DNA from: Nitrospinota bacterium | GTDB lineage: Bacteria > JADFOP01 | NCBI GenBank assembly: GCA_022562795.1 | Contig: JADFOP010000018.1 | Span: 3,167-35,966, forward strand | Length of the DNA stretch: 32,800 bases | Direction of reading: 5' to 3' | Shown: piece after piece, positions 12,776 to 32,800 of the stretch | How positions within the stretch are numbered: position 1 is the stretch's first letter | Layout of the letters: each line of letters begins with the position of its first letter | Translations under genes and position numbers: made by a program | The notes under the pieces: generated by a model | What the model saw: the letters and a program-made list of their open reading frames with translations, nothing else | The model's database searches: none | Told to the model about the DNA's origin: nothing

Positions 12776-12997
12776 CAGGTCTCTCCTTCGCCAGACGCCA
12801 CGAAAGTCGGGACATTCCTCGAAACTTTAACGATTGACTACTCTAGATTGTAGCGGGTTGGAATTCAAGCGTCCGGCAACGCAAGCTCGCCTTCCGGCTG
12901 AGGCGGACCTCAGGAGGAGTCCCTGTCCGGGAAAATTGCCCGCGCCATCCGCCTTAGGCGGACCTCAGGCGGACTACATGGTCTTGTGCCCCTGTAG

Positions 12998-15674: not shown

Positions 15675-16235
15675 TCAGCGGGACCGGGATGGAGGAGACG
15701 GGGTCGCTCTCCCTGCGGGGGGGGTGGGCTGCGCCGGCGTCCGTGGTCGAACCGCCCCGCGCGCTCCAGGACGCGCGGGTGACTTGGGAGTCTTTCTCGG
15801 CCTGTGAAGGATGACTTCGAATTTCTCGTTTCCCAAAGCCATGATGACCCTGTCGCTTTTAACCTCCTTTAACACGTAATCGCCAATCCTTCCACCTTTA
15901 GTGAGTGACTTGACCTTGCCCTCAGTCAATTTGGGCTCTTGGAGAAGCGCAATGGACTTGCCTTTCTCGAGGAGGATAACTCCCTGAAGCACGAAATTCG
16001 TTTTTGAGATATCGCCAGAGGGCGGCTCAGGCTCATCGGGGGAAGGCGGAGGCCTCTGAGGGATACGCTCGGGATGGAAGAGGTTTTTATCCTCAATGAC
16101 CGTAAAGTCTGAAAGCGGCGGGAGGGCCCGCCGGCCTTGCTGCGCGGCGGCGGGCCGGGCCATGAGCAATAAAACTGCCAGGCCGAGGAGCCCCACGGGA
16201 AGGAGCCCACACCAAGTTTTGGTGAGCCGAGTCAC
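15675..16235 (-). CDS. gspC: T2SS inner-membrane protein GspC (HR-domain, PilP-like)
   Basis: The 186-residue protein has a single N-terminal membrane segment (about 12-31). Its periplasmic homology region runs from FTVIEDKNLFHPERIP to about residue 145. That region includes FVLQGVILLEKGKSIALL and ends in a beta-rich stretch (VKSLTKGGRIGDYVLKEVKS). This is the GspC HR / PilP fold that contacts the N0 domain of the secretin. The last 40 residues are Pro/Arg/Ser-rich with no PDZ domain, so it is shorter than the E. coli-type GspC. It overlaps gspM by 4 bp and is the last gene of the operon, whereas gspC usually comes first. The assignment rests on position, topology and the HR-like pattern. Confidence 0.7.
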   Translation of the reverse strand: MTRLTKTWCGLLPVGLLGLAVLLLMARPAAAQQGRRALPPLSDFTVIEDKNLFHPERIPQRPPPSPDEPEPPSGDISKTNFVLQGVILLEKGKSIALLQEPKLTEGKVKSLTKGGRIGDYVLKEVKSDRVIMALGNEKFEVILHRPRKTPKSPARPGARGAVRPRTPAQPTPPAGRATPSPPSRSR

Positions 16236-24326: not shown

Positions 24327-26790
24327 CTAACGACGGCCAGCCTTATGTTTTTTGAGGAGCTTTTGGATGCTTTGGAGCCGCTCGTTGTACAGATCGGTGA
24401 CGGCGCGGGCGTCGGCTTCGTCGAAGACCACCCGGGGGGTCACCATGACGATGAGCTCGGTCTTTTCCTTCGTTATGACGGTGCGGCCGAAGATGCGCTT
24501 AAGTATGGGAATGCGGTTCAGGATGGGGATGCCGGTCAGCGTTTCTCTCCCGGTCTCAGAGATGAGCCCGCCGATGATGAGGGTCTGGTTGTCTTTTACC
24601 ACGACGCTGGTTTTCGCACTGCGGGTGAGGAAGCTGATTTCCCTATTACCATCTTCCGTTACAAAAATCTCGCCGATTTCGCTCAGCTCCTCCTCGATAT
24701 CCAGCGTCACATAGCCGTTCTCGTTGATTTTCGGCGTAATCTTGAGCTTCACCCCCACCTTTTTGAACTCGAAGCTGGTTGGTGATATCGGTGTTGGGGT
24801 CGGTTGTGGTCTTGGGAATGGGCACCTCCGTCACCACGTTTATCTCCGCCTCCTTGTTCTCGGAGGTGAGGATGCTCGGGCTCGATACGATGTTCAGATT
24901 GCCCTCCGAGGCTAGCATATCCAAGGTGGCGATGAACCGTTCGGGGTTGGTGACAAAGAGAGACAGCCCCCCAAGGTCTGTAACCGCTGTGCTCGTAGGA
25001 ATGGCGGGAGTCGCCACAGGGGAGCCCAGTTGGGCAGCGCTGGCGATTGGTAGCCCCCCTGACCTAACCTTTGATCCTCGGAAGGCGTACTCGAGGCCGA
25101 ACTCGAAGTCGCCGGTCAGGGTGACCTCCGCGATGAGGGTCTCGATGATGACCTGCTTGGGCTTTCGGTCGAGCTTCTTGATGACCGCCAGGACGTCAGG
25201 GTAGTTGACCGGCTTTGTTCGCAAAACTATGGCGTTGGACTCCGTATCGGCGACGACGAAGAGGGAAATCTCCTCAGAGGTGGCGTCGGAGACGACCCGC
25301 TCGGCCACCCTGAGCGACGGGGAGGCGCGCGGCGACGTGGCGGCGGCCGGCGGCGGGGCCTCAGCTTTTTTTTCGCCCGCCGTCTCGAGTTGGGCTATGC
25401 GCTCAAGCGGAGAGCCGCTCGGAGCCCTGCTCTCGCTTCTTTCGAACTCGGAAGTTGGCCTGGGAGTGGATGGCTGCGGCCTAGCAGGGACGCCCCCGCT
25501 CTCCGAAGGAAATAGGCCCTGGAGGATGCCGACGATGTTCTCAGCCGTCCCGTACTGGACGTAATAGACGAAAGTCTGCTCCTCGGCCCGCAGGGTGGGC
25601 TGGTCGAGCCGGGAGGTCCATAGATCGATGGCCGAAGCGAGGTCGGGCAGCCCGTTGACGACGAGAAGCGCGTTGAGGCGCGGGACAGGGATGAACTCCA
25701 GGGTCGCCGACGCGTCGTCGCCGTAGCCGAGGGCTACGAACATCATTCGGAGCTCAGCGGCCAGGGTCTCGGGGTCGACATAATCCAACGAGTAGAGTTT
25801 GGTCTGGATGCGGTCGAAGGCGTCGGTGTCGAGCATCTCAACCAACCGAAGCACCTTTTTGACGTTTCGGGCCGAATCTACGAGGATGAAGCTGTTGGTG
25901 CCCTTGATGGGAATCATGGCGGCCGCCTCAGAGATGACCGGCTTTACGACCTCCTGCATTGTGCCCGCCGGGATGAACCGGACTGGTATAACCTGAATAA
26001 TGAAGCGATCCTCGGCCGGAACGGGAAACGCCCGGCTGCCCATGCGGGTGGCGATTGGAAGCTGACGCGCCTGGGCCACGGGGACCACGCGGTAGAGGTC
26101 GCCCACCTGGACCATCGTGAAGCCGTTTACGGCGAGAATCTGCTCCAGCGTCGGCAGCAGCTCGCTTATGGAAATCTTGCCCGCCGTCTGAATGGTGACG
26201 GTCCCGCCGACGGCCGGATCTAAAACGTAATTAATGCCTACGAGATCCCCCACCACCCGGATGACGCTGCGGAGGTCCGCCTCGTCGAAGTTCAACACCA
26301 CCTTGCCCAGGGAGGAGGAGGGCTGGTTGGCCAAGACGATAGCCCCGGCGTGCGGGTCGACGCTCATCGAGGAATAGGTGGCCAGCCTCGAAGGATCGTA
26401 GGCGGGCCGGGCCTCAGCGAACGATGCGGCAGGAGGGCCGGAATAGGCGGCCGTCGACGGCCCGAAGTCAGGCAGCGGAGGCCTCAGCAGATCGGGGTAG
26501 AATGAACTGGGGACGAGGGGCCTGGACGATTCAAACGCCGGTGCGGGAGGTCTCAGAAGATCGGGGTAGTATGACCGAGGAATTGGAGCCGTAATCTCGC
26601 CCGGTGCGTTTGCCGCGAGCAGCGCGTACAGCGAATTGTCGGGCCCCGACCGCCAGGGCAACGGCCACCGACTGCACCCGACGACGAGGAGGGCTACGGC
26701 TGCCCACGCTAAAGGGCGGGACCACGCGCTAAGAGCGCCGCGGACCGGGAGACGCGCCCGTGGGAGAGTCTTCTTACTCACTCGTCCCAT
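24327..26790 (-). pseudogene. gspD: T2SS secretin GspD, interrupted by a frameshift
   Basis: GspD forms the outer-membrane secretion channel. The first frame (26790 to 24646) begins with a basic N-terminus and a lipobox LLVVGC (Cys39), so this secretin seems to be a lipoprotein. Two copies of an S-(Y/F)-YPDLLRPP motif (73-86, 96-109) follow. N0 is at about 163-235 (LNFDEADLRSVIRVVGDLVG), then N1-N3 with a Pro/Ser/Ala-rich insert, and the start of the secretin domain. At 24771-24789 the family sequence jumps frame: the expected SFEFKKVGVKLKITPKI, SVVVKDNQTLIIGGLI and GIPILNRIPILKRIFG continue in another frame to a stop at 24327. Joined, the protein would be about 820 residues. A single extra base (or two missing) near the site explains it. 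This may be a sequencing error, since all other gsp genes are intact. Confidence 0.85.
24771..24789 (-). other. Frameshift site in gspD
   Basis: The 5' frame is last family-like at D-I-T (24789-24781) and the 3' frame is first family-like at S-F-E-F (24776 downward). The minus-strand sequence between reads ATCACCAACCAGCTTC; removing one A from CCAACC restores DITTSFEF, a usual secretin sequence. The run is not a slippery heptamer. Confidence 0.75.
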
Positions 26791-26977: not shown

Positions 26978-27069
26978 GTGGGGCGTCGTGGTAGGATTGG
27001 GGGCGCGAGATGATTAGAAGGACACCTGTCCGCGCTCTTAGGTTTTTGAGTCGAGGAGAACACAAACTG

Positions 27070-27834
27070 ATGGTGATGTTGCGTGCCTATTGTGATGCCA
27101 GCGGAAAATCCGACAATCCCAATGATGTAATGGTTACTATTGGCGGCGTCGTTTCTTCTTTGGAGCAATGGGAGCAATTTGAACCTGAATGGTCAGCTAT
27201 GCTTGACAGTTTCGATGTTACAGAACTTCACATGAAGTATTTGGCCCATTGCAGGGGGGAATATGAAGGATGGGACGAAAGCAAAAGGCGGAGCTTTTTG
27301 GGACATGCTATCAAGATAATGGACAGACATTGTGAAGGCTATATGGGAGCCACAATGCCGATAGAGGTTTTTGATAGCCTTAAGGCTGAACACAAGGAAA
27401 AATTGGTTGACCCATATTTCCCTTGCTTCTTTGCAAACATCGGCGGTCTGATGATTTGCGCCGACCATCTGGGACCCGAAGAAAAGGTGGAAATGACCGT
27501 CGAGGGCGAACCTGGTTTTATGGGCAAAGCAACGGAATTTTGGGAGCGAGCCAGAAATGAAGGCCCACCTGGATTTAGGGAAAGACTTGGAACATTGACC
27601 GTGGGCGCATCTTCTAGAGAGGTTCTCCCTCTCCAGGTAGCGGATTTGGTGGCTTACGAAGTGAACAAATATCTCTCTTCTGAATATATGTACCGACAAC
27701 ATGGCAAAGCCCTACCAACAAAATGGCCCAGGTGGACATTTAAACAAATTAAAAAAGAGATGGATGGGCAAAAAAGGATGGTGCTTGTTGAGGTTTTTGA
27801 CCGCAGAACCGTAAAAAAGTGGTTTGGAATTTAG
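27070..27834 (+). CDS. DUF3800 domain protein
   Basis: The protein has 254 residues from the ATG at 27070 (GAGGAG 11 nt upstream); an in-frame ATG at 27010 would add 20 basic residues and is possible. It starts AYCDASG and ends with PLQVADLVAYEVNKYL, the two hallmarks of DUF3800: the acidic Y-x-D-x-S-G motif and the late Q-x-A-D-L motif. The fold is thought to be RNase H-like, with these acidic residues as the likely metal site, but activity has not been shown. DUF3800 genes are often found on mobile or defence-type islands; here it lies against a transposase in AT-richer DNA. Codon use is clearly more A/T-ending than in the gsp genes, indicating transfer. Confidence 0.8.
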   Translation: MVMLRAYCDASGKSDNPNDVMVTIGGVVSSLEQWEQFEPEWSAMLDSFDVTELHMKYLAHCRGEYEGWDESKRRSFLGHAIKIMDRHCEGYMGATMPIEVFDSLKAEHKEKLVDPYFPCFFANIGGLMICADHLGPEEKVEMTVEGEPGFMGKATEFWERARNEGPPGFRERLGTLTVGASSREVLPLQVADLVAYEVNKYLSSEYMYRQHGKALPTKWPRWTFKQIKKEMDGQKRMVLVEVFDRRTVKKWFGI

Positions 27835-28775: not shown

Positions 28776-28928
28776 ATGAGCAAGAAAAAGAAGAAGAAAA
28801 AAGCCACCGACCAGACCACGGAGGAAATCATGGGGCGGGTCTTTCCCAAGCGAGTCGTCAAGAAGATTCGCAAGGCTATCGAGGATAAAGACCATCGCTC
28901 CAAGCCTCCTAAGAGATACAATAGGTGA
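28776..28928 (+). CDS. Small lysine-rich ORF beside the transposase
   Basis: This is a 50-residue ORF divergent from the transposase with 15 bp between starts. GAGG lies 8 nt before the ATG. It encodes an N-terminal Lys run (SKKKKKKKA) then a plausible helical domain (TTEEIMGRVFPKRVVKKIRKAI) and a basic tail. It is very basic and could bind nucleic acid. I do not recognise a family with certainty. The transposase promoter overlaps its 3' end on the opposite strand, so it could be a chance ORF, but the ribosome site and sensible composition favour a gene. Confidence 0.4.
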   Translation: MSKKKKKKKATDQTTEEIMGRVFPKRVVKKIRKAIEDKDHRSKPPKRYNR

Positions 28929-29063: not shown

Positions 29064-29957
29064 CTAATCATCGACGAGGTCTTCGGCCTCGTCGGGGTCG
29101 ATCTTTTTGACCTCTTCTAGAGCCATCTGGCGCTCCTCAGTCGTCTTGGCCAAGTGATACCTCGTGACGGCCGCGTTCACAGTCGCGTCCTTGCGCTCCT
29201 CGGCAAGCTCCTCGGCGTCCATCTCCATGAGATCCTCGGCCTCGTCCTCGTCGAGCCTCTTCAGAATCGAGAGGGCCCGCTGCCGCTCTGCCTCCGTCGT
29301 CGCTAAAAGGAAATCCTGGCGGGCCTGCTCCAGCTCTGCCTCCTCTCGTTCCTCGGCCATGTCCTCCTCATCCAAATCCTCCAGGTCCTCGGCCTCGTCC
29401 TCGTCGAGCTCCCTAATCTCCTCCAGGATGGCCTGCCGCTCGGCGTCCGTCTTGGCCAGCAGGAACCTCCGTTGGGCGGCCTCCAGGGCCTCCTCCGACA
29501 CGTCTTCATCGTCACTATCTTCGTCGCGGTCCTTATCCCTCTTCTTCCGCCTTTCTCTCGACACGGTGGCCTTACGCTTCCTGGGCTGCGGCGTCCCGGT
29601 GGCGAGGACCGCCAGCTTGAGCGCTCCCGAGGAGACCTTGGCAAGCAGGGTGCTCGGAAGACCCGTAAGGCGGATGAGGGACTCGATGACCTCCTCCAGC
29701 GTAACCTTCTCGTAGGTGGCCGTCACGGGCTCATAGGGGATGTTCTCCCCGCCCTTAAGCAGAAGCCCGCACTTCTCCTCGAGGGCCCTAAAGACGTCCG
29801 GGGCCAGGGCTTCCCGCGCCTCGAGGCTCAGCAGCTTCCCCTCCTCGCAGCTAAGCTTGATCGTCCCTTTGGTCTCGGCGGCGAAGACGCCTGCGGCCAG
29901 CGCAAGCGCGATGGCCAGCGCGGCACAGGCAGTCAAATACCCCCTTGAAATTCCCAT
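29064..29957 (-). CDS. Exported protein with STN-like domain and three 51-residue acidic repeats
   Basis: The protein has 297 residues, with AGGAGGG before the ATG. A signal peptide (about 7-27, ending VFAAE) sends it across the inner membrane. Residues about 31-120 (GTIKLSCEEGKLLSLEAREA, VTATYEKVTLEEVIESLIRL) look like a short secretin/TonB N-terminal (STN)-type domain. A basic linker (RKRKATVSRERRKKRDK) follows, then DEDSDDED. Next come three repeats in perfect 51-residue register from about 157, 208 and 259. Each has an amphipathic helix (FLLAKTDAERQ, FLLATTEAERQ, YHLAKTTEERQ) and the acidic motif D-x-DEAEDL; the last is cut short. I know no family with this layout. It may be a periplasmic partner of a secretin or a cation-binding protein; both are guesses. 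Confidence 0.8.
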   Translation of the reverse strand: MGISRGYLTACAALAIALALAAGVFAAETKGTIKLSCEEGKLLSLEAREALAPDVFRALEEKCGLLLKGGENIPYEPVTATYEKVTLEEVIESLIRLTGLPSTLLAKVSSGALKLAVLATGTPQPRKRKATVSRERRKKRDKDRDEDSDDEDVSEEALEAAQRRFLLAKTDAERQAILEEIRELDEDEAEDLEDLDEEDMAEEREEAELEQARQDFLLATTEAERQRALSILKRLDEDEAEDLMEMDAEELAEERKDATVNAAVTRYHLAKTTEERQMALEEVKKIDPDEAEDLVDD

Positions 29958-30040
29958 CGTTCCCTCCTGCGCTGCGTAAAGGGATAATCCCGCGTGAGGC
30001 CCGTATGAGGCGTGTCCCTACGGGGCCGCTATCATTATAT

Positions 30041-30061
30041 GGACAGCCTTTATGGTTGTCC
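30041..30061. repeat. Hairpin repeat GGACAGCC-TTTAT-GGTTGTCC
   Basis: An 8-bp stem (one G-U pair) with a 5-nt loop. It belongs to the same family as the hairpins at 13037 and 13267. Confidence 0.7.
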
Positions 30062-30135
30062 AGCTAATATTGATGTCTGGGTTTCGCCTGAGTTTCGCCT
30101 GCGACGGACTGTCCGCTGATTTTAAGGCGTCGGGG

Positions 30136-30163
30136 TTCCGCCTGAGGCGGACCTAAGGCGGAA
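30136..30163. repeat. Nested palindrome TTCCGCC...GGCGGAA
   Basis: TTCCGCC at 30136-30142 pairs with GGCGGAA at 30157-30163. The inner CCGCCTGAGGCGG (30138-30150) is itself a near-perfect palindrome. The same CCTNAGGCGGAC module occurs in the 12.9-13.4 kb cluster. Confidence 0.7.
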
Positions 30164-30184: not shown

Positions 30185-31588
30185 TCAAGGTAGCACCCGG
30201 CCGCGCATGTGGGCTGGCGCGGGCAGGCCCATGAGAGCCAGGAGGGTGGGCGCGACGTCGAGGTAGCTCATCTCCTCCGACTCCCCGACCGGCTCTCCCT
30301 TGGGGTGGCGCATGATGAAGAGCCCGTGGGTGGCGTGGTTGGCGTCGTCGGGGCCGGTGTCGTTCTCGAACCGGTGTATCTCGCCCCAGCCCAACGTCCC
30401 GATGGAGCGCCAAGCCAGGTCGCCGAAGTAGACGAAGAGGTCCGGGGGGATGCCCCGCACCGTATCGAAGACCTCCTCGGGGCGGTGGACGCGGGTATGG
30501 ATGGGGCGGCCCCGCTCGTCGCCCAGGGCCTCCAGCCTGGCCTTGAGCTCCGAGCGGACGACCTCGTAGGCGGCCGGGGCGACGACGCCCTCCGGCTCGC
30601 GCCCCTTCACATTGAGGCAGAGCCTCCCGTAGTATCCACCGTAGCCCCAGGCGGTCGTCTTAGACCACTCGACCATCTCATGGCTCAAGGGGGTCCCGGG
30701 AGGGTGATCCCCCTTGATCGTCAGGTAGCCCTCGCGCTGGAGCCACCCGTTTATGCAGATGCCGCCGAGCATCGCCTGGGCCCCGTGGTCCGAGCAGACG
30801 ACGACGGCGGTCTCGTCGTCGAAGCAGGCCATCAACTCTGCGATCTGCTCGTCGAGGAAGCGGTAGTAGTCGGGGATCGCGCGGGCCAGGCGGTGGCCGG
30901 GCTCGTGCTTGGGATGGGCCGGGTCGAAGTATTTCCAGAAGCCGTGGTGGAGCCTATCGAGCCCCATCTCCACCATCATGAAAAAGTCCCACGGACGGGT
31001 TGTAACCAGGTGCCGGGCCTGATCGAAGCGCTGACGGCCCATGGCGTAAATCCGCTGGAGCAGGCCGTCCTTGTCGTCGGTCCGAAAGTCCTCAACATCC
31101 ATAATGTGGGGGCCGGCGACCCGCTCCAGCTCTTCTTTGAGAGAGGCCGGATAGGTGAACTCGGACTCCCGGCTGGGCGTCAGGAAGCAGGAGACCAGCT
31201 CGCCGTTTACAGCCGTAGGGGGGTAGGTCTGGGGGACGCTGAGGACGATGACCCGCCTGCCTGCCTGGGAGGCGATGTCCCAGACCCGAGGGGCGGTGAC
31301 CGCTTTCGAAGAAGCGGTGGTCAGCTGGTCGTAGGAGTAGTCGGCCCGGATTCTAAAGCCGTAGAAGCCGAGCTCCCCCGGCGATAGGCTCGTGAGCATG
31401 GCGGTCCAGGCCGGTACGGTGATGGGCGGATCGGTGGAGCGCATACGGCTCGACCAGCCCTCCTGGGCGAGCCGGCGAAGGGTGGGCAGCTCGTCCCGCA
31501 ACGACTCGAAGACGAGCGATGGCTCGGCGCAGTCGAGGCCGATGACGGCGAGCCGCTTGGCGGGCTGGAGAGGGCGGGTGTCAGGCAT
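30185..31588 (-). CDS. Alkaline-phosphatase-superfamily phosphodiesterase/nucleotide pyrophosphatase-like hydrolase
   Basis: The 467-residue protein has the full metal-site pattern of the type I phosphodiesterase branch of the alkaline phosphatase superfamily: Asp19 in VIGLDCAEP, probable nucleophile Thr57 in PPITVPAWTAML, Asp211 and His215 in EMGLDRLHHGFW, Asp267-His268 in CSDHGA, and His421 in NHATHGLF. No signal peptide is seen, so it is probably cytoplasmic. The real substrate (nucleotide, phosphonate, sulfate or lipid-linked) cannot be told. The ATG at 31588 is preferred: AAGGA lies 7 nt upstream and the upstream extension is unlike the family. Confidence 0.85.
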   Translation of the reverse strand: MPDTRPLQPAKRLAVIGLDCAEPSLVFESLRDELPTLRRLAQEGWSSRMRSTDPPITVPAWTAMLTSLSPGELGFYGFRIRADYSYDQLTTASSKAVTAPRVWDIASQAGRRVIVLSVPQTYPPTAVNGELVSCFLTPSRESEFTYPASLKEELERVAGPHIMDVEDFRTDDKDGLLQRIYAMGRQRFDQARHLVTTRPWDFFMMVEMGLDRLHHGFWKYFDPAHPKHEPGHRLARAIPDYYRFLDEQIAELMACFDDETAVVVCSDHGAQAMLGGICINGWLQREGYLTIKGDHPPGTPLSHEMVEWSKTTAWGYGGYYGRLCLNVKGREPEGVVAPAAYEVVRSELKARLEALGDERGRPIHTRVHRPEEVFDTVRGIPPDLFVYFGDLAWRSIGTLGWGEIHRFENDTGPDDANHATHGLFIMRHPKGEPVGESEEMSYLDVAPTLLALMGLPAPAHMRGRVLP

Positions 31589-31617
31589 AGGTCTATCCTT
31601 ATATAAATAAGAGACAC

Positions 31618-31646
31618 CATATACCACACCGGAGGCGCCCCGGCAA
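31618..31646 (-). promoter_or_regulatory. Possible promoter of the phosphodiesterase gene
   Basis: On the minus strand, TTGCCG (31646-31641) and TATATG (31623-31618) are spaced by 17 nt, each matching four of six consensus bases. The implied start is about 20-25 nt before the ATG. Confidence 0.4.
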
Positions 31647-31657
31647 AGCCAGGAGGC

Positions 31658-32539
31658 TTAGACGTCTCTAAGCCGTCCAGATGCGGAATCCTCCGGCTGA
31701 GGGGTCGGAGCGAAGCCCCGGCGGATGGTGTTCTCGGAGATGGTGACGGGCTCCAGGAACTGGAGGAGGTAGTCGGGCCCGCCGGCCTTGCTTCCGACCC
31801 CGCTCATGCCGAAGCCGCCGAAGGGCTGGCGGCCCACGAGGGCCCCGGTGATGGGGCGGTTGATGTAGAGGTTGCCGACCCTGAACGAGCGGCGGGCCGC
31901 CTCCAGGTGGGCCGGGTCTCTCGAGTAGACCCCTCCTGTGAGCCTGTATGGGCTGGCGTTGGCGAGCTCCAGGGCTTCGTCGAAATCCCTGGCGCGAAAT
32001 AGGGTTAAGACGGGCCCGAAAATCTCCTCGGTGTGCAGGCGCATCGTGGGGGTGACATTCGCCACTACAGTCGGTGTGTAGAAGTATCCGCGTGGCATAT
32101 CCGCCGGGCGCGAACCCCCCACCAGCACCTCGGCCCCGGGTGGGTCGCTGCTCATCGTGATCGACGCCCAGTTCGGCGTTAGTTCGGCCACCAGATGCTG
32201 GCGCTCACCGCCGCCGATGACATCCAGCTCGCGAACTTCGGCCAGGAATCGTTCCGCGACGAACTCGATCATCGAAAACAGCGGCTGAATAATGGCCCAG
32301 CCGATGCCGATGGCCGACTGCGCGTAGCGGACCTTGATGCTTCGCCAGATGAGGAAGCGGAACAGGTCGCGATAGGCGTAGAGTTCTTTCAGATCAAGTA
32401 ACCGCCACCCGGAGCGCGCCTCGATGACGGTGATGGGGACGTCTGGCGAAGCCGCCACGATTTCAGCCGACGGAGAGAAACCCAACGCGTCAACCGTCGT
32501 AGCGGATTCGGTTCCTGAGTCTTCAACTGCGGTTTGCAT
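31658..32539 (-). CDS. Chimeric ORF: ABC-2 exporter N-terminus + PEGA-like piece + P5C/aldehyde dehydrogenase C-terminus
   Basis: One open frame of 293 residues joins parts of unrelated proteins. Residues about 1-91 match the N-terminus of Wzm-type ABC-2 polysaccharide exporters (WRLLDLKELYAYRDLFRFLI, then WRSIKVRYAQSAIGIGWAII and QPLFSM). Residues about 92-135 switch to ELTPNWASITMSSDPPGAEV, reminiscent of a PEGA domain. From about 135 it is the last third of a 1-pyrroline-5-carboxylate/aldehyde dehydrogenase: GYFYTPTVV, EEIFGPVLTLF, SPYRLTGGVYSR, VGNLYINRPITGALVGRQPF, GGFGMSGVGSKAGGPDYLLQ. The catalytic Cys and Glu of the dehydrogenase lie in the missing part, so it cannot be active. The second join falls in GAEVLVGG, which fits both partners (32137-32114). 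Either a genuine rearranged pseudogene or an assembly chimera. Confidence 0.75.
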   Translation of the reverse strand: MQTAVEDSGTESATTVDALGFSPSAEIVAASPDVPITVIEARSGWRLLDLKELYAYRDLFRFLIWRSIKVRYAQSAIGIGWAIIQPLFSMIEFVAERFLAEVRELDVIGGGERQHLVAELTPNWASITMSSDPPGAEVLVGGSRPADMPRGYFYTPTVVANVTPTMRLHTEEIFGPVLTLFRARDFDEALELANASPYRLTGGVYSRDPAHLEAARRSFRVGNLYINRPITGALVGRQPFGGFGMSGVGSKAGGPDYLLQFLEPVTISENTIRRGFAPTPQPEDSASGRLRDV

Positions 32540-32800
32540 GTTTCGCGTTCAATACAATAAGGAGAGGATGCCATGTTAAGACGATTTCAGCGGCCTTAGT
32601 GCGTTTTTCAAGGATTTTGCACAGTCGAAATCCGTCACGAACAAACTCACTCGGTTTCTCCCGAACGGCCTGGACTAACGGACCATCATACATCTTGAGT
32701 CGTGGAAGAATCTCCGGGGCATCCCATCGATGGGGGAACAGATTGAAGTGCTGGAACACCATCCCGACTTCCTGGCGCAGCCGGTTCAGGTCGGTCTTGG
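32523..32800 (-). CDS. Partial chimeric ORF: amino-acid ABC transporter ATPase fragment
   Basis: The frame enters from the right edge as KTDLNRLRQEVGMVFQHFNL then FPH. This is the Q-loop region of a GlnQ/HisP-type polar amino-acid ABC ATPase. At a palindrome CCCATCGATGGG (32723-32734) it changes to RWDAPEILPRLKMYDGPLVQ and on to a stop at 32523. I do not recognise that part, and it lacks the LSGGQ signature and Walker B expected next. It overlaps the start of the next chimeric ORF by 17 bp. It is probably a gene fragment or a misjoin at a contig edge. Confidence 0.5.
   Translation of the reverse strand, partial: KTDLNRLRQEVGMVFQHFNLFPHRWDAPEILPRLKMYDGPLVQAVREKPSEFVRDGFRLCKILEKRTKAAEIVLTWHPLLIVLNAKHANRS

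Follow-up and report, generated by a model that had tools for sequence, protein, structure and literature searches.

The gene under study occupies exactly positions 29064-29957 on the minus strand of the window (i.e., the whole stretch of 32,800 nucleotides that was analysed). Its open reading frame starts with ATG and encodes 297 amino acids. The product is a real bacterial protein, predicted to be exported, with an unusual pairing of domains, for which we demonstrate the architecture, a paralogous family and a pattern of conservation. The individual features are listed below, with the respective evidence in brackets.

29064..29957, minus strand: whole gene, 297 aa, with signal peptide, STN-like domain, linker and three acidic repeats (open reading frame; full-length paralogue of 54% identity; STN dN/dS of 0.20)
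29880..29957, minus strand: predicted Sec signal peptide, residues 1-26, likely cleaved between VFA and AE (sequence reading; paralogue alignment; model helix 5-27)
29598..29867, minus strand: STN/secretin-N0-like domain, residues ~31-120, with conserved C37 and C63 (secretin STN profile matches; hhalign 93.5%; 77% identity to the paralogue)
29493..29588, minus strand: linker, residues 124-155, basic then acidic, not conserved (paralogue alignment; charge; dN/dS)
29340..29492, minus strand: acidic helical repeat 1, residues 156-206 (DNA repeat spacing; self-identity; repeat alignment; structure model)
29187..29339, minus strand: acidic helical repeat 2, residues 207-257 (same evidence as repeat 1)
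29067..29186, minus strand: acidic helical repeat 3, residues 258-297, C-terminal and without the last linking stretch (same evidence as repeat 1)
30034..30062, minus strand: sigma-70-like promoter TGGACA-17-TATAAT, 76 nt upstream of the start codon (11/12 consensus match, which is not proof)

Upstream on the same strand lies a gene of the type I phosphodiesterase family (30185-31627). The ~230 bp between both genes hold a dispersed palindrome as well as the promoter-like site, which matches the consensus well; 3 such sites were found in the region vs. 0.3 expected in shuffles. Given this site, the gene is probably transcribed on its own. Downstream come an IS1595-type transposase and, on the opposite strand, a DUF3800 gene; further on lies gspD with the remainder of a T2SS cluster.

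Some properties of these flanks are of note in their own right. The palindrome just upstream of the gene (TTCCGCCTNAGG-N6-TNAGGCGGAA, 30136-30163) has another copy at 12947-12974 and, when up to 3 mismatches are allowed, occurs about 36 times across the 2.15-Mb genome (0 in the reversed-pattern control); it is a REP- or MITE-like element. Another dispersed palindrome of the GGACAACC..GGCTGTCC type (30038-30064, several genome copies) overlaps the promoter-like -35 box. Rfam provides only sub-threshold matches near the gene. Located between gspD and the gene under study, the DUF3800 gene (27010-27834, plus strand) adjoins the IS1595 transposase; this stretch is probably a mobile insertion that splits an older neighbourhood. 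Divergent from the transposase we find a small lysine-rich ORF (28776-28928, plus strand, 50 aa, MSKKKKKKKATDQ...) with a 72% identical DNA copy on contig C7; this ORF may be a passenger of either the insertion sequence or the DUF3800 gene. In gspD, the frame breaks at about 24770-24785 and the secretin domain is split over two frames, i.e., there is either an assembly error or a broken gene. Finally, ORF 31658-32539 matches only the C-terminal third of an aldehyde dehydrogenase model while its start reads like the N-terminus of an ABC-transporter permease, and the aldehyde dehydrogenase found here in a genus-mate is longer. The stretch 31658-32800 is single-copy in the genome, and a rearrangement or mis-join near the contig end is possible.

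The initial annotation considered the protein to be exported, and a signal peptide can indeed be read in the sequence of both full-length copies, i.e., the reported protein and its paralogue, for which the cleavage motif is AWA followed by GA. Since cysteine is absent at the cleavage site, the protein is probably not a lipoprotein. An alternative lipoprotein signal via LTAC (residues 8-11) was rejected, given that the hydrophobic core is mostly C-terminal of LTAC and that the motif is absent from the paralogue. That is, the sole cysteine of the signal peptide (C11) is located ahead of most hydrophobic residues and has no counterpart in the paralogue. We infer export from this predicted signal peptide.

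The STN/N0 fold consists of two helices between two beta sheets, and STN domains are usually described within secretins, TonB-dependent transducers or anti-sigma factors. For the reported protein, an STN-like domain had been proposed to follow the signal peptide. We searched 386 genomes with a profile of two rows (both full-length paralogues). The best three matches beyond the own genome are secretin STN domains (E-values 2.8e-6, 5.8e-4 and 6.2e-4), and three weaker N-terminal matches that we examined are also secretins, as judged by sequence. When compared to secretin STN, hhalign reports a probability of 93.5% with 32% identity over 59 columns; its E-value of 2.3e-7 refers to a single comparison with four secretin STN/N0 domains, the window's own GspD among them. 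On single sequences, the Pfam STN models remain below the reporting level, and across the own genome the Pfam STN model finds only a threonyl-tRNA-synthetase-like frame, which is a chance match. The single-sequence structure model of the STN part shows a strand-helix-strand-helix order at pLDDT < 50 over most of the domain. Despite this poor model, profile matches and hhalign together support the STN assignment. Both C37 and C63 are conserved in the paralogue and could pair in the periplasm. What usually surrounds an STN domain was not found: Pfam gives no match to the secretin channel domain (PF00263) on the protein, whose C-terminus is a helical array, and no TonB-dependent plug plus beta-barrel follows the STN domain, i.e., helical repeats extend to the last residue (297), without Pfam match.

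The three acidic repeats noticed at the outset are confirmed. They start at residues 156, 207 and 258, which corresponds to DNA spacings of 153 and 153 bp. At an offset of 51, the self-identity of the repeat part is 0.505 (50.5%), compared to a maximum of 0.302 among 3000 composition-preserving shuffles (best over all offsets 20-79). The register is thus far beyond chance, the D/E-rich composition notwithstanding. Within the own genome, the repeat profile recovers seven repeat copies at E < 1e-17 (search of 386 genomes). All these copies agree in unit positions T15, D30, A34 and L37, and they largely share the pattern A-x-x-x-F/Y-L-x-A-x-T-x-E-E-R/K-x-x-A-L-E-x-I-x-x-L-D-P-x-E-A-x-D-L. Outside the own genome, the same search yields only stretches of 17-33 positions in unrelated frames (best E-value 2.5e-4). 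We take these short matches as chance, such that the repeats are not convincingly found elsewhere in the 386 genomes.

For the repeat part alone, AlphaFold2 predicts a confident helical array (mean pLDDT 91.6, pTM 0.79) with three helices of ~22, 14 and 9 residues per repeat unit. Since this is a single-sequence model of a repetitive acidic protein, we consider the helices credible but the exact packing less certain. With the repeat model as query, Foldseek gives no significant PDB match (best E-value 0.17, mostly designed helical repeats with TM < 0.3) and none among viral structure models (best E-value 0.43). The isolated repeats show no TPR, HEAT or MgtE_N match in Pfam at E-values up to 10. 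A link to metal transport via MgtE-like repeats, as suggested initially, thus lacks Pfam support.

The repeat region carries a net charge of -34 across 142 residues (37% D/E), and the paralogue repeats are also strongly acidic (-21). For the whole protein this amounts to -11.8 per 100 residues vs. about -3 to +12 in 15 other window ORFs, i.e., the window's other proteins do not share this acidity, which does not reflect general halophily. These values would fit an exported cation-binding protein whose acidic array acts as a buffer or store for divalent cations (Ca, Mg, metal ions), either periplasmic or extracellular, with the STN domain only mediating oligomerisation. However, no EF-hand, dockerin or other metal-binding family is matched in Pfam, the repeats are without histidine or cysteine clusters, and the four invariant residues look like helix capping or packing positions rather than ligands. 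We regard a cation-binding protein of this kind as unlikely.

Next to the acidic repeats, the initial annotation had emphasised a strongly basic linker and thus a basic-then-acidic charge pattern. The basic stretch is real (residues ~124-143), but the linker as a whole has a net charge of only +1 because its end turns acidic, and the linker of the paralogue is acidic (net -8). Similarly, the exact 51-residue register holds for the reported protein but not for the family, since the paralogue repeats are spaced by 51 and then 47 residues. Basic linker and exact register are thus not conserved. Judged from the two aligned copies, the basic linker is a private feature of one of them, and with a paralogue lacking it the charge pattern cannot serve as a defining feature.

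To place the protein, its own genome was searched (2.15 Mb, 84 contigs, 97% complete). The full-length paralogue is encoded on contig C11 and retains signal peptide, STN domain and three repeats; it is 54% identical overall and 77% identical in the STN part. Of a third copy, only the C-terminal end is present at the first bases of contig C35, i.e., it is truncated by the contig; it retains the C-terminal repeat and terminates at the equivalent place. Given the paralogue and the third copy, the family is real. A genus-mate and a class-mate (one genome each) show no family member at E-values up to 10. This argues that the family is not part of a conserved core machine, though the genus-mate is only 85% complete. 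The genus-mate contig is named Nitrospinae bacterium AH_259_B05_G02_I21, and the genus-mate is listed under Nitrospinota in NCBI. Atlantis Massif sediment is the reported source of single-cell genomes carrying AH-259 names (PMC8406227), and its name suggests that the genus-mate may belong to this set. No relative was found in plasmids, nor in GTDB contigs and viral contigs when each was screened with two short family peptide patterns. In what was searched, we so far know a small family from one uncultured Nitrospinota-like genome.

Between both full copies, dN/dS (Nei-Gojobori) rises from 0.20 in the STN domain over 0.57 in the repeats to 1.16 in the linker. By these ratios, the STN domain is the constrained core under purifying selection, with weaker constraint on the repeats and none on the linker. 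Narrow distribution and the adjoining insertion sequence and dispersed repeats could also point to a functionless decaying or chance product, i.e., a secretin N-terminus left without its channel and extended by a low-complexity tail. But decay is at odds with the conserved repeats in all three copies, with two uninterrupted full-length frames (STN dN/dS of 0.20), and with a third copy that keeps C-terminal repeat and end point. The selection pattern already disfavours it, and we consider it very improbable. The fast change of linker and repeats, along with a predicted cleavable signal peptide in a soluble, acidic, lineage-restricted and multi-copy protein, would also suit a secreted or matrix-type protein with an extracellular role, perhaps released via the T2SS. 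Here, the best conserved part is the STN domain, known for uses within the envelope, and neither Pfam nor NCBIfam recognises any other binding or catalytic domain. Accordingly low is the probability we assign to secretion out of the cell.

The nearby T2SS genes raise the option of a dedicated part or regulator of this system, competing with or capping the N0 domain of GspD. The reported gene is on the same strand as gspD and ~2.3 kb upstream of it, the N0 domain of GspD is recognised by Pfam, the gene set after gspD reads as T2SS, and N0 is well documented as a docking site (PMC3169554). Yet the IS1595 transposase and the DUF3800 gene intervene, and the reported gene has a promoter-like site of its own. 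The copies on C11 and C35 are not near T2SS genes: the former is flanked by a DUF971-like gene and a ferredoxin-like/radical-SAM-like pair (sequence reading), the latter is near a nucleotidyltransferase-like gene, and no gene neighbourhood is common to all three copies. The genus-mate retains the aldehyde dehydrogenase and the preceding phosphodiesterase (80% identity), after which a different gene (a lipoprotein start) follows, and no family member is found in it. Taken together, these neighbourhoods leave the initially considered linkage with T2SS or metal transport unsupported, and a dedicated T2SS role appears quite doubtful.

No characterised family with matching architecture was found in Pfam, NCBIfam, PHROGs or PDB sequences, in agreement with the initial annotation. 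That is, the whole protein against Pfam, NCBIfam and PHROGs and its separate parts against Pfam yield no family above noise. A PDB sequence search with protein, STN profile and repeat profile provides nothing meaningful, and within the 7obi match no single stretch passes. Closest is the STN/secretin N0 superfamily (PF07660 STN, PF21305 type_II_gspD_N0), which shares the 59 columns and provides the best matches among the 386 genomes; in contrast to it, the reported protein is unmatched by the Pfam STN models, has no secretin channel and contains two cysteines that are conserved. The Legionella Dot/Icm protein DotD, likened here by description only, is also an exported non-secretin protein with N0-type fold (PMC2951367). 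But DotD is a lipoprotein while no lipobox cysteine can be read at either cleavage site of our family, acidic helical repeats are not described for DotD, and no Dot/Icm genes are found beside the reported gene. The signalling domain of TonB-dependent transducers and anti-sigma STN domains (FoxA/FoxR, PupR) likewise dock in the periplasm (PMC11637429), whereas the reported protein has no TonB-dependent barrel and its gene no anti-sigma or sigma factor beside it. Helical tandem repeats are shared with TPR and alpha-helical solenoids (designed TPR 7obi; designed repeats 5cwh and 8f6q), and the stretch A-L-E-x-I-x-x-L-D-P-x-x-A resembles the end of TPR helix B. However, the unit has 51 residues and three helices vs. 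34 residues and two helices in TPR, without significant structural match or Pfam repeat family. We could file the protein under no known family in the databases compared, i.e., it would represent an orphan architecture.

Given the analogies from STN/N0 domains, we tentatively favour a role as envelope adaptor or scaffold, i.e., a soluble Sec-exported protein combining an STN docking module with a charged arm; this is a possible function, to be held with less than even confidence. STN domains interact with each other as well as with periplasmic portions of inner-membrane proteins (PMC11637429), the HR domain of GspC is bound by N0 of GspD (PMC3169554), and the lipoprotein DotD is an N0-fold protein that acts outside any secretin (PMC2951367). 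In the proposed mechanism, the signal peptide would direct Sec export of a soluble envelope protein. Its N-terminal STN/N0-type domain, possibly stabilised by a C37-C63 disulphide, would act as protein-protein docking module and bind an envelope partner through an STN-STN or STN-HR type contact, as in secretins and TonB-dependent transducers. The C-terminal part, a predicted alpha-helical array of three strongly negative 51-residue three-helix units, would bind either divalent cations or a basic partner.

An adaptor is favoured by the architecture and export signal that both full-length paralogues share, by secretin STN domains as top matches, by the STN domain as most constrained part and by the confidently predicted repeat fold. 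Against it count that no partner was identified, that a common neighbourhood is missing, that the STN model is of low confidence with Pfam STN silent, and that the family was not found in genus- and class-mate. With at least three secretin loci, the own genome does hold candidates for an STN partner; one secretin is encoded on contig C10, and the window includes a GspC-like protein at 15675-16235. A further-reaching and rather unlikely version is that of a new envelope adaptor family that combines a free-standing STN domain with an undescribed 51-residue three-helix acidic repeat fold, with at least three copies in one Nitrospinota-like lineage that plug different charged partners into STN-based envelope complexes.

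Since the family is so far known from one genome, the reach of these findings is limited. The repeat may represent a helical array for which no close relative has been solved. A soluble protein family combining an STN domain with acidic helical arrays would illustrate a further use of such docking modules, and would offer a small target for learning what STN domains recognise in poorly known phyla.
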